Source of the DNA: Aquimarina sp. AU58 | GTDB lineage: Bacteria; Bacteroidota; Bacteroidia; Flavobacteriales; Flavobacteriaceae | NCBI RefSeq assembly: GCF_900312745.1 | Contig: NZ_OMPD01000014.1 | Span: 3,224,001-3,288,000, forward strand | Direction: 5' to 3' | DNA: 64,000 bases | Shown here: in pieces, positions 648 through 3,394 of the stretch | Position numbering within the stretch: the first letter of the stretch is position 1 | Layout of the letters: every line of letters begins with the position of its first letter | Program-made: the position numbers and the translations under genes | The notes under the pieces: model-generated | Told to the model about the DNA's origin: nothing | Seen by the model: only the letters and a program-made list of their open reading frames with translations | Databases searched by the model: none

Positions 648-998
648 TTACTTGAGTCGTTTTTTTATACTACTCATTTTCTTATTCAGTTTTAAAATTT
701 CTTTCATAAGATGAACATTTTCAATTGCTCTGTACGAATCTGGACCTGGAGGTGGCGGTGGATCTGGTACTCCTCCCGGTGGTAACCCTCCATCAGGTCC
801 ATAAAACTGAGGTCTAAATTTAACTAAGATATCTATTAGTAATTGTGGGTCTTTTTCAAGATCAATAATGGGTCCATGCTTTTTTATAACATCCTTTATA
901 ATTTTCTCCTGGTTCTTTACAGAAACAATAAGGTTCTTGTCTCGTATATGAGATAGTTTAGAACCTTCGGCTTTTAAATTTTTGATTTTTTTTGTCAT
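648..998 (-). CDS. Small protein with central proline-rich segment; putative substrate of the upstream modification enzymes
   Basis: I do not recognise a family. I choose the ATG at 998 (116 aa) because the longer frame to 1094 would overlap the end of the dioxygenase gene, whereas 998 lies 22 nt after its stop, as expected in an operon. The N-terminal 60 residues are Lys-rich and probably helical. Residues 67-88 are low-complexity Gly/Pro/Asp with ten prolines, including five in a row (80-84). The C-terminal 28 residues are again basic and helical. There is no signal peptide, so it is likely cytosolic. As the third gene after a GT60-like glycosyltransferase and a prolyl-4-hydroxylase-like enzyme, it is an obvious candidate acceptor for proline hydroxylation and glycosylation. 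That is inference from context. Confidence 0.6.
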   Translation of the reverse strand: MTKKIKNLKAEGSKLSHIRDKNLIVSVKNQEKIIKDVIKKHGPIIDLEKDPQLLIDILVKFRPQFYGPDGGLPPGGVPDPPPPPGPDSYRAIENVHLMKEILKLNKKMSSIKKRLK

Positions 999-1020
999 AT
1001 GCGTTTCAATTTTAGAGTTT

Positions 1021-1617
1021 TTATCGTATTGCTTTTTGTCTTTCCCAGGTAACCAATGTTGTTTTTTTACCATTAATAATGGGTAATCCTGCATGCAACA
1101 TATTATAATTACAATTTCCGTCTGGCAGCAAATTATCCCAGACCAATAACCTTCCTTGTTTTGGTTTGACTTTGATATCTAAATTTTTGAAATGTGTAGC
1201 TCCTCCTTTTTTAGGTCTATTGAGGTATAACAAATAGGTTTTCTTTCGTTCTCCTGCATAATGCTCTCCCCAGGCCCCACTGTCATAGTGATAATCAAAC
1301 TTACCGTGTTTGGCATATTTTGTGGCTTGCCATTGCTCTAGTTTATTTAAGTTTACATCAAATAATGCCGTAATATCTTCCTCTATTTTCTTTACCACCC
1401 CTATAAGTGTATCTGTAAATAACTCCTGGTCTGCACTTTTACTAATCCGGGTGTTACTAAGATGACTCTTATGTATCCTTGGGTCTATTACCGTACTATG
1501 TTTCCAAAAAGAATATTCGAGTTCTTCTAATATTGTCGTACACATCGATGCAGGTACAAAATCATCAATACATACGATTTTATCTTTTTCTAATATTTCA
1601 GCTACAGATTGCTTCAT
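1021..1617 (-). CDS. Prolyl-4-hydroxylase-type 2-oxoglutarate/Fe(II) dioxygenase
   Basis: This 198-aa protein has the 2OG-Fe(II) oxygenase double-stranded beta-helix signatures. They are the iron ligands H110-x-D112 and H175, a 2-oxoglutarate-binding Lys at 184/185, and the prolyl-hydroxylase motif LLYLNRPKKGGATHF at 129-143. The C-terminal pattern VKP-G-LLVWDNLLPDG followed by LHAGLPIINGKK closely follows eukaryotic and bacterial P4H domains (P4Hc), which hydroxylate peptidyl proline using 2-oxoglutarate, O2 and ascorbate. There is no signal peptide. Its start overlaps the last 20 nt of the upstream glycosyltransferase gene and its stop is 22 nt from the proline-rich protein, indicating co-transcription and a shared function. 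The exact substrate is unknown. Confidence 0.85.
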   Translation of the reverse strand: MKQSVAEILEKDKIVCIDDFVPASMCTTILEELEYSFWKHSTVIDPRIHKSHLSNTRISKSADQELFTDTLIGVVKKIEEDITALFDVNLNKLEQWQATKYAKHGKFDYHYDSGAWGEHYAGERKKTYLLYLNRPKKGGATHFKNLDIKVKPKQGRLLVWDNLLPDGNCNYNMLHAGLPIINGKKTTLVTWERQKAIR

Positions 1618-2500
1618 TTTCTATACCATTATCATACAACTTAAGATCAATATGTTTTTCATACTCAATCACTTTCCTATCAGGACCAAGTATAGTATTA
1701 GAAGTCATGTTTGTTGTATAGATTATTTTCATTTTATTATAAGATATCTCCTCCTGTTCATACCATGAGGTATGATCATCCCAATGTGGTGTTCTTGTTT
1801 TTCTATCGTATAAATGCCACCCTAAAATAATATGAGGGTGAAATAAATCATATCCATACGTATATGCCCTAAGACTGGTTAATACCTCGTCTCCAAAAAA
1901 GTAGATCTCTGGATCAAAATGAATTTCTTTATTAAAGAACCCATCGGCAAACAAAAAGTGTAATGAGATGAATTGTGCAACAAGTGGTTTTTTAATTTTT
2001 TTCCAATGTGGAATAGGATAGCTTGTTAATTTAGTGAGAAGTCCTTTATCTCGTTCTAAAGGATAGATTTTAAGAGGGTATTTCATTCTTCCACCAGGTT
2101 CGTTTTCGGGATCATAAGAAGGGAGATATGCTGTGATAATTGGTTTTTTTATACCTTCATCTTTTAAGGCTTTAAACATTTTTATAGTTTCCTCATCCCA
2201 GTCTTTTACAAACCTATGATGAGAATCCAGATATAAAGTATAAGCTTCATTTTTCCATTGTTTCTGGAGTAAATTACGCGCCCAGTTACAACCTTTACTG
2301 TCTTTATAGTGAATATCAAGAATTTCGACATTACCGTAATCAAAAACTTCTTTTTTAAGTTGTTCTTTATTTCCATGTTGCCATGCAATTACGATTCTTA
2401 GTCTCTCGGGATGTTTAGCCTTTTTGTTAAGATCAATCACTGTGTTAGACAGCTCTTTATCCCGGTATGCTGGTATTTGTATGTATATCTTTTCGAGCAT
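1598..2500 (-). CDS. GlcNAc transferase, PF11397/GT60 type (Skp1 hydroxyproline GlcNAc-transferase-like)
   Basis: This 300-aa cytosolic protein lacks a signal peptide. The N-terminal IYIQIPAYRDKELSNTVIDL (residues 5-24), a following RIVIAWQ, GCNWARNLLQ around 70-79 and the metal-binding LYLDSHHRF (D92-S-H94) are the ordered landmarks of the PF11397 'Glycosyltransferase (GlcNAc)' family. Further on, a DGFF-to-GDE segment and a histidine-rich IILGWHLYDR also fit. In Dictyostelium and Toxoplasma the GT60 enzyme Gnt1 adds GlcNAc to 4-hydroxyproline made by a prolyl hydroxylase. Here the gene is first in an operon with exactly such a hydroxylase. Donor and acceptor are inferred, not shown. The last 20 nt overlap the hydroxylase start. 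Confidence 0.85.
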   Translation of the reverse strand: MLEKIYIQIPAYRDKELSNTVIDLNKKAKHPERLRIVIAWQHGNKEQLKKEVFDYGNVEILDIHYKDSKGCNWARNLLQKQWKNEAYTLYLDSHHRFVKDWDEETIKMFKALKDEGIKKPIITAYLPSYDPENEPGGRMKYPLKIYPLERDKGLLTKLTSYPIPHWKKIKKPLVAQFISLHFLFADGFFNKEIHFDPEIYFFGDEVLTSLRAYTYGYDLFHPHIILGWHLYDRKTRTPHWDDHTSWYEQEEISYNKMKIIYTTNMTSNTILGPDRKVIEYEKHIDLKLYDNGIENEAICS

Positions 2501-2833: not shown

Positions 2834-3394
2834 ATGATTAGGATCAATCAAGAATTATTAGATTTCTTTTCACAACTATCAGAGTCTTCTATAAGTACTA
2901 TGGTAAAAGAGAAGAAATTTATGTCAAAAGAAAAAATTATTATTCAGGGAAAATATGTACCCTCTATCTTTATCATAAAAAGTGGTGTAGTAAAATGTTA
3001 CGTAAACGAGGATAATGGTAGAGATTTTATCCAGGAGTTTTTTAGCACTGGTGAAATCCTTGGAGAATTAGAAATTTTTAATGATATTATTAGCTTTTGT
3101 AATGCAGAAGCAATAACAGAAGTTAAGGGATATGAGATTGATGCTAAAAATTTCTATACCCTACTAGAAAATCACCCAAAACTTAATTTATTACTTTTAA
3201 AAGCATTAGCCAATAAAGTAAGAGATACTGCGATTAGAGCATCCCAACAACAGTCATACCCTATTGCATATAACCTCAAAAAATTAATGAAATTTTCTTC
3301 TGATGAAGCTATGGCTTTTTCTAAACAAGATATAGCTGATTATTTAGGAATAACACTACGCAGTCTTAATAGAGCGCTACATGAGATATCTTAA
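2834..3394 (+). CDS. Crp/Fnr-family transcriptional regulator
   Basis: This 186-aa protein has an N-terminal cyclic-nucleotide-binding-type beta-roll (about 15-120, including IFIIKSGVVKCYV and EILGELEIF), a long dimerisation helix (about 125-150), and a C-terminal helix-turn-helix (about 160-184, KQDIADYLGITLRSLNRAL). It ends almost immediately after the recognition helix, so it lacks the winged beta-hairpin usual in 200-230-aa family members. That C-terminus is common among Bacteroidota Crp/Fnr paralogues. No Fnr-type cysteine cluster is visible. It is divergent from the GT60/P4H operon and could regulate it, but proximity is the only evidence. Confidence 0.8.
   Translation: MIRINQELLDFFSQLSESSISTMVKEKKFMSKEKIIIQGKYVPSIFIIKSGVVKCYVNEDNGRDFIQEFFSTGEILGELEIFNDIISFCNAEAITEVKGYEIDAKNFYTLLENHPKLNLLLLKALANKVRDTAIRASQQQSYPIAYNLKKLMKFSSDEAMAFSKQDIADYLGITLRSLNRALHEIS

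Follow-up and report, generated by a model that had tools for sequence, protein, structure and literature searches.

A three-gene locus in an Aquimarina genome

The window analyzed here is a stretch of 64,000 nucleotides from Aquimarina sp. AU58 (Flavobacteriaceae; contig NZ_OMPD01000014.1, positions 3,224,001 to 3,288,000) that carries at positions 648-2500 three minus-strand genes encoding a GT60 glycosyltransferase, a prolyl-4-hydroxylase (P4H), and a small proline-rich protein (Table 1). An earlier note on this DNA had read the trio as an operon that could encode a bacterial hydroxyproline glycosylation system, and the gene arrangement that it described agrees with our coordinates: the GT60 and P4H reading frames share 20 bp (1598-1617), and a 22-bp gap (999-1020) separates the P4H gene from that of the small protein. 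The frame of the latter stays open upstream to 1094, and we set its start at 998 on the strength of the related locus L027, where the first start codon that follows a stop corresponds to this position. No signal peptide or membrane segment was noticed in the three proteins by eye (no predictor was run), and a cytosolic action of the trio is plausible. The 6.19 Mb genome holds one GT60 gene, seen as two stretches of one frame when this genome was searched, and two PF13640 places, one of them at this locus.

Table 1. Features of the three-gene locus and the evidence behind each assignment.
Feature	Position in window	Strand	Evidence
GT60-family (PF11397) polypeptide glycosyltransferase, 300 aa, DxH motif D92-S-H94	1598..2500	-	PF11397 match, invariant residues, AlphaFold2 model, dN/dS
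P4H-like 2-oxoglutarate/Fe(II) oxygenase (PF13640), 198 aa, H110-x-D112 / H175 / K185	1021..1617	-	PF13640 match, invariant residues, PDB relatives, dN/dS
Small proline-rich protein of 116 aa with a helical N-terminal part, a DGG/poly-Pro linker, and a C-terminal helix; probably modified by both enzymes	648..998	-	Homologs beside GT60/P4H, dN/dS, AlphaFold2
Codons of linker PDGGLPPGGVPDPPPPPGP (residues 68-86), putative hydroxylation/glycosylation site	741..797	-	Invariant DGG and prolines, Pro-Gly, related type II repeats

Two enzymes of protein-modifying families

The glycosyltransferase matches PF11397 with an E-value of 1.3e-59 (202.9 bits against a Pfam cut-off of 21), and both GT60 landmarks that had been pointed out in it, IYIQIPAYRDKELS and LYLDSHHRF, are indeed present. 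Instead of a DxD motif, it carries a DxH (D92-S93-H94) in agreement with the motif of GT27 and GT60 enzymes, two families that, according to the available excerpt of a published account, have this motif and a retaining mechanism in common (PMC7185993). D92, H94, and H229 are invariant across a 50-row alignment of bacterial and viral GT60s, and by this alignment, H229 is the candidate metal-binding C-terminal histidine. Structures were predicted for the GT60 and the small protein. The AlphaFold2 model of the GT60, made from the 50-row alignment, has a mean pLDDT of 92.8 and a pTM of 0.92, and ppGalNAc-transferases are its top solved match in Foldseek (E 1.2e-10). VIA-align, which compares only the families on the VIA list, gave 6nqt with Z 22.9, an rmsd of 3.8 over 271 residues, and 14% identity, and its top 29 rows are all peptide-acceptor GalNAc-transferases (Z 19.7-22.9), followed by a first other row at Z 17.9. 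Sequence identity to ppGalNAc-transferases is about 10-16% in the listed alignments, and the predicted fold suggests that the GT60 is a retaining enzyme with polypeptide acceptors. A PDB sequence search with the 50-row profile found no relative; matches to designed repeat proteins, which lack a passing stretch, were taken for spurious. None of the three proteins of the locus has an NCBIfam match at E<=1.

The second protein matches PF13640 (E 2.4e-11; 44.9 bits against a Pfam cut-off of 27) and contains all P4H landmarks previously named for it, i.e., H110-x-D112, H175, a GGATHF motif, and the VKPKQGRLLVWDNLLPDG block, with a complete active site. H110, D112, H175, and K185 are invariant in all 11 aligned P4Hs from cassettes of this kind (see below), and we take from alignment to known P4Hs that the HxD...H triad binds Fe(II) and that the basic residue is the 2-oxoglutarate ligand. 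Among PDB entries, a profile of the cassette P4Hs (A3) matched 3itq (E 6.2e-21), 2jig (3.9e-20), and 7zsc (1.1e-16), of which the first is presumably from Bacillus anthracis and the second from Chlamydomonas. The PDB matches as a whole comprise these three, with 7zsc being a collagen P4H-alpha2, as well as 5hv0, 5c5t, 6tp5 (a transmembrane P4H), and a few chance matches. No PHD, PHD2, PhyA, or PPHD is named among the 10 phmmer and 12 profile matches at E<=1, the presence of such entries in the PDB copy being unchecked. Going by these matches, the solved relatives of the cassette P4H are of the collagen/Bacillus type and not of the PhyA/PHD type. Collagen-type P4Hs favor X-Pro-Gly or poly-Pro.

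A proline-rich linker as the putative site of modification

The earlier note left out the feature of the third protein that is key to the interpretation, a proline-rich linker at residues 68-86. As aligned in 11 rows, D69-G70-G71 and the prolines P80, P81, and P83 are invariant, and at least one Pro-Gly occurs in the linker of all 11 type I small proteins, i.e., those from cassettes built like the one in the window. The AlphaFold2 model of the small protein, made from 11 sequences with a mean pLDDT of only 62.8, places helices at residues 13-41, 52-61, and 94-115, and the linker as well as residues 11-25 lie largely under pLDDT 50. No Pfam family matches the small protein over its cut-off (11 members scanned), so there is nothing Skp1-like in the cassette, and no convincing relative was found in the PDB, where the best match (E 0.018) is a coiled-coil stretch. 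Searches for the small protein among plasmids gave no match, and of 600 IMG/VR stretches that fit its pattern, none was confirmed.

Since the small protein is homologous across cassettes and carries a proline-rich motif, it is probably the cognate substrate of both enzymes. On balance, we favor with some confidence the reading that the P4H hydroxylates one or more linker prolines and that the GT60 then adds a sugar to the hydroxyproline, making the locus a self-contained and probably horizontally spread modification cassette. With O2, Fe(II), and 2-oxoglutarate, the P4H would act on at least one proline of the DGG/poly-Pro linker. The hydroxyproline so made would then receive a sugar from the GT60, as a retaining GT-A enzyme of the ppGalNAc-transferase type; this sugar is most likely alpha-GlcNAc, with UDP-GlcNAc as the donor and the oxygen of the hydroxyproline as the probable acceptor atom. 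We infer hydroxylation and alpha-GlcNAc addition because the DGG, prolines, and Pro-Gly of the linker are conserved, because the P4H is of the collagen type, and because Toxoplasma Gnt1, a GT60 enzyme, transfers alpha-GlcNAc to a hydroxyproline of Skp1 in dependence on PhyA, as stated in the accessible part of the respective study (PMC6939170). The helical parts flanking the linker may serve recognition and the small protein's own function. The outcome would be an oxygen-dependent change of the small protein, for which our first guess, made with low confidence, is an O2- and 2-oxoglutarate-dependent switch in its binding or stability, and our second an exported peptide. In support of this reading, both enzymes belong to protein-modifying families and have intact motifs.

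Type I cassettes in three phyla

Our search for GT60s in genomes of 84,980 species confirmed 143 and the best 80 loci were kept, as were the best 80 from IMG/VR, where at least 574 of 600 pattern stretches were confirmed. The open reading frames (ORFs) of these 160 loci were queried by phmmer with the window P4H and small protein and subsequently by profiles. Beside GT60s that are 92-97% identical to that of the window, both partners were found in four Aquimarina loci and one unclassified Bacteroidia metagenome-assembled genome (MAG; together L023-L027), and both also occur in Mycobacterium/Mycolicibacterium (L028, L029, L030, and L046), an Actinomycetales MAG (L032), and the cyanobacterium FACHB-502 (L033). 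Used alone, the window P4H query found these 11 type I loci and a Burkholderia locus, L089, to which we return below. Two more mycobacterial cassettes, G831 and G887, came from the search for the small protein and are hence selected for having it. Outside Bacteroidota, identity to the window proteins is 36-43% for the small protein, 37-43% for the P4H, and 47-53% for the GT60. The small protein is thus homologous in Bacteroidota, Actinomycetota, and Cyanobacteriota and accompanies the enzyme pair across three phyla and two gene orders, GT60-P4H-small protein in L023-L027, L032, L033, and G887 and small protein-GT60-P4H in the remaining mycobacteria, which again supports its role as the probable substrate.

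All three genes have a low dN/dS. Across six Bacteroidota copies (the window and L023-L027), the median dN/dS by the Nei-Gojobori method is 0.058 for the GT60, 0.128 for the P4H, and 0.094 for the small protein, and across four mycobacteria it is 0.061, 0.124, and 0.118, respectively; values this far below 1 in all three genes indicate that the locus is more than chance. Chance adjacency of the two enzyme genes was likewise rejected as the pairing recurs in distant phyla, within one clade, and with a single GT60 in the genome of the window. Among the neighbors listed, no further gene was seen by eye to recur beside cassettes of different phyla, though gene calls of L032 are poor. Also by eye, a gene resembling major facilitator superfamily (MFS) transporters lies 3' of the P4H in closely related mycobacteria, and transposase-like ORFs flank the cyanobacterial copy. 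The copy of Mycobacterium sp. 141 (L046:5915-7205) is broken, with only the start of the small protein and a GT60 that begins at about residue 99; its P4H is open.

The cassette is rare and patchy. The small protein was found in 5 of 33 Aquimarina genomes among 56 relatives (plus one weak match at E 0.06), in 5 complete forms and 1 fragment among 248 genomes of the Mycobacterium-genus sample (plus 5 weak matches), and in 1 of 244 cyanobacteria (plus one weak match). Three of the six weak matches in Mycobacterium and cyanobacteria (L197, L199, and L202) look low-complexity or unrelated and were dismissed. A further genome of the window species, G1911, carries the cassette as well. The earlier note had suggested looking for conserved adjacency of the two enzymes across Bacteroidota, and there, it is nearly absent: the window genome has the only strong GT60 of 395 sampled from the phylum, followed by ten matches at E 6.5e-5 to 7.6e-4 of which seven exceed the family cut-off, and among 299 genomes of its family a GT60 was found in the window genome besides one weak match. 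Within this phylum, the trio was seen only in Aquimarina and the one unclassified MAG, and the adjacency holds instead for Mycobacterium, another actinomycete, and a cyanobacterium, together with the variant in Nocardioides and Paracoccus described next. A profile of the GT60 clade matched 1 of 296 genomes in a sample of the actinomycete phylum and 1 of 149 in a sample of the Paracoccus family, each being the starting genome. Because of this patchy occurrence over four phyla (variant included) and the changed gene order, the cassette has probably spread horizontally.

A type II variant with proline-rich repeats

Two GT60s of the cassette clade belong to a variant: behind that of Nocardioides astragali (L034) lies a protein of 226 aa with four proline-rich repeats, and behind that of a Paracoccus MAG (L035) one of 214 aa with three, the repeats being of the kind PPDGG(P/T)PEPG(V/T)PP(V/A)GP. 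Next comes an enzyme of 503 aa (L034) or 507 aa (L035), in which a PF13640 oxygenase (E 5.5e-15 and 3.5e-19, respectively) is fused to a domain of the Cupin_8/JmjC type (E 2.2e-38 and 4e-44). Of the 27,092 frames searched, 17 carry a type I or II small protein, and 14 of these contain the pattern DGG-x-P-x(1,2)-G-[VTA] (12 of 15 when G831 and G887, each fetched twice, count as one frame apiece), as do two unrelated frames (L045 and L051). The three without it are L026, L033, and the broken L046. As read from this pattern, the type I linker and the type II repeats share a motif, and the resemblance supports the modification of linker prolines in that the GT60 is here partnered with a different PF13640 enzyme. 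An apparent match of the small-protein model to L035 was discarded as the model had been trained on L035. In the same locus, the type II set (L035:3569-7148) is followed by a 1193-aa protein that by eye resembles a subtilisin-like protease with a von Willebrand A-type part.

Repeated cores of this sort, and the leader-core-follower layout of the small protein in general, would also suit a precursor of a ribosomally synthesized and post-translationally modified peptide (RiPP); the proline-rich core of such a precursor would be hydroxylated, glycosylated, excised, and exported to act as a signaling or antimicrobial peptide. The MFS-like gene of the mycobacteria and the PqqD-like genes, recognized by eye, that adjoin a few other GT60s (L064 and L082) fit this idea, but no peptidase or transporter was seen recurring across phyla among the neighbors listed (by eye, with the poor gene calls of L032, and no model of the RiPP recognition element was run) and the C-terminal helix is conserved, which is unusual for a discarded follower, so that we consider a RiPP quite improbable.

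Alternatively, both enzymes might modify another cytosolic protein, in which case the small protein would recruit or inhibit them in the role of adaptor or regulator. Its helix-linker-helix layout in the low-confidence AlphaFold2 model could suit an adaptor, and a bacterial prolyl hydroxylase that acts on a host protein is established with PPHD and EF-Tu, as far as the available excerpt goes (PMC7864055). We nevertheless deem this explanation unlikely since the listed solved relatives of the P4H are not PHD or PPHD, since it is a proline motif that is found again and again and, in type II, several times over, which one would expect of a substrate, and since a dedicated substrate accounts better than a host protein for the occurrence in different phyla without other conserved neighbors (by eye).

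The oxygenase accompanies one clade of GT60s

A tree of 97 GT60 rows (the 80 genomic loci, 14 of the 80 viral ones, L203, L204, and the window), which was quickly made without bootstrap and in which the row of L046 is under half filled, sets apart by one branch (SH-aLRT 100; length 1.21 changes per column) the 14 type I rows (the window, 11 loci, and two mycobacteria), the 2 type II rows, and L031, i.e., a group of 17 made up of 16 cassette GT60s and one at a contig end. When an oxygenase profile was run over all frames, a P4H-like oxygenase was found in 14 of the 160 GT60 loci. Inside the clade, it is present at 13 of 14 loci, the 14th, L031, ending at the contig edge directly behind the GT60. 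Since the type I, type II, and L089 oxygenases served to train the profile, they necessarily match it, and more distant oxygenases elsewhere may have escaped it; the 11 type I loci and L089 are independently supported by the window P4H query, and L089, L034, and L035 by Pfam. The oxygenase hence goes with this GT60 clade and not with bacterial GT60s generally.

The GT60 at the contig end belongs to a Bryobacterales MAG (L031:6001-6864; 53% identity); a complete copy in Acidobacteriota would add another phylum. In the class of this MAG, 12 of 240 genomes match the clade profile at E<=1e-50, the L031 genome at 3.6e-143 and the other 11 at 1.4e-73 to 3.0e-67, and we take these 11 for other GT60s. 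Outside the cassette clade, Burkholderia dolosa has a separate GT60-P4H pair (L089:5104-7350) whose GT60 is from the Burkholderia group of the tree and whose P4H ends 39 bp upstream of it, with genes resembling luxI and luxR nearby (by eye).

Several points weigh against hydroxylation and glycosylation of the linker as we propose it. Only 1 of the 66 genomic loci outside the clade (L089) and none of the 80 viral loci have the oxygenase, and since most bacterial GT60s thus lack an adjacent P4H, hydroxyproline is not a general GT60 acceptor. The N-terminal model of type I small proteins misses the type II proteins at E<20, so that their homology is undemonstrated by sequence, and the P4H and small protein could be an enzyme and its adaptor as considered above. 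The cyanobacterial small protein has only 5 prolines, none of them directly after the DGG. Moreover, GT60 has also been linked to Ser/Thr O-glycosylation, an activity that GT60 and GT27 are said to share on polypeptides in the excerpt at hand (PMC7185993, citing Heise 2009). The GT60 could accordingly act on Ser/Thr, or on a different side chain that is unmodified, in the small or another protein, with hydroxylation by the P4H as a separate mark. The resemblance of the GT60 model to GT27 enzymes would agree with such an activity, as would Ser or Thr in the homologous linkers of L026, mycobacteria, L032, and L033, for which a Ser/Thr acceptor is possible, so that the argument from hydroxyl acceptors holds for only part of the family. 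In the window, however, the linker is free of Ser/Thr from D69 to P86, leaving hydroxyproline as the only hydroxyl acceptor within it, and the presence of the oxygenase at 13 of 14 clade loci (the 14th cut off) versus 1 of 66 genomic loci outside suggests that the GT60 depends on it. We therefore regard Ser/Thr glycosylation as very unlikely.

Other genomic contexts of GT60 and neighbors of the locus

Elsewhere, GT60 adjoins type VI secretion system (T6SS) genes and fimbrial-type proteins (partly by eye) or contractile-tail genes. In Burkholderia, Paraburkholderia, and Cupriavidus, a GT60 lies directly 3' of the fimbrial-type gene that ends T6SS runs (L008 and L009, annotated; L063 and L006, by eye), and possibly, this T6SS-linked GT60 glycosylates the adjoining fimbrial-type protein. 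GT60s are common in phage contigs (L103-L182), where their neighbors, as in phage genomes, include carbamoyltransferases, FkbM methyltransferases, and glycosyltransferases and other transferases. PqqD-like proteins were seen by eye beside GT60s at L082:5167-7278 and L064:243-2654, and in the former, from Gemmatimonas, the PqqD-like frame continues as a long tail rich in Ser, Thr, and Pro, a possible acceptor. The Pfam scans of GT60 flanks cover the 139 of 160 loci in which the glycosyltransferase was located, with the 11 type I loci left out on purpose; 86 of 103 genomic and 83 of 149 viral flanking ORFs were scanned, those dropped being mostly near-copies and some other ORFs, and we consider here the 25 commonest families of 53 (genomic) and of 32 (viral).

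At the locus in the window, a Crp-type regulator gene (2834-3394) is divergent from the trio, and a plus-strand gene resembling a membrane protein converges on it with its end at 529. The Crp-type gene also occurs in the Aquimarina genome G697 (89% identity), with neither the cassette nor the three genes on its far side at that place, and this regulator gene is therefore not specific to the cassette. Rfam found nothing in the window, and scans for promoters and terminators, which do not cover Bacteroidota promoters, stayed at chance level. A role in anti-phage defense was dismissed as PADLOC gave only generic 2-oxoglutarate oxygenase models labeled as CRISPR-associated for two oxygenases and nothing for the glycosyltransferase or two small proteins.

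Significance and comparison with known systems

Glycosylation of hydroxyproline is commonly regarded as a trait of eukaryotes, and we know of sugar-on-hydroxyproline tagging inside cells otherwise only from amoebae and parasites. In the open-access literature, no description of such a bacterial system was found by title or the start of the abstract, most subscription papers lying outside this search. The chemistry is known from eukaryotes; what appears to be new to the literature is the cassette of bacteria with its hydroxylases and its proline-rich protein. As a broader and more tentative idea, which we hold at somewhat less than even chances, bacteria may have dedicated mobile cassettes for hydroxyproline O-glycosylation that act as an O2- and 2-oxoglutarate-gated switch like the protist Skp1 pathway, with GT60s having teamed up repeatedly with proline oxygenases (the type I P4H, the type II PF13640/JmjC-cupin fusion, and the pair of Burkholderia dolosa). 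If true, this would show GT60 partnering hydroxylases of different make, suggest oxygen-dependent cytosolic glycosylation in bacteria including some mycobacteria, and offer a compact tool to make defined Hyp-GlcNAc proteins in E. coli. A three-gene bacterial version with a probable substrate would be a simple system to study the cooperation of hydroxylase and GT60.

Among known systems, the ppGalNAc-transferases of family GT27 have the closest solved fold to the cassette GT60 and have the DxH and retaining mechanism in common with its family; GT27 enzymes, which modify Ser/Thr within the secretory pathway, differ from it in having a lectin domain. The P4Hs of Bacillus, Chlamydomonas, and collagen (3itq, 2jig, and 7zsc) are the best PDB relatives of the cassette P4H, with a common HxD...H...K site, and to our knowledge, none of them is paired with a GT60 and a dedicated substrate gene. 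Pseudomonas PPHD, which acts on EF-Tu, is likewise a case of bacterial protein prolyl hydroxylation, though it is a PHD-like enzyme with a housekeeping substrate for which the excerpt available mentions no partner transferase (PMC7864055).

For the Skp1 pathway of Dictyostelium and Toxoplasma, the likeness to PhyA and Gnt1 drawn in the earlier note probably does not amount to orthology of the pathways, and we consider descent of the whole PhyA-Gnt1-Skp1 set unlikely, given that the listed relatives of the cassette hydroxylase are of the collagen/Bacillus kind with no PHD, PhyA, or PPHD among them and that the cassette has a small proline-rich protein in place of a Skp1-like one. Furthermore, no sugar-extending genes (PgtA and others) were noticed by eye beside the cassettes, the rest of the genome not having been searched. 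Unlike in the Skp1 pathway, the genes are linked in one bacterial unit; like it, the cassette combines a GT60 with a prolyl hydroxylase, would probably act in the cytosol, and probably places GlcNAc as the first sugar on hydroxyproline.

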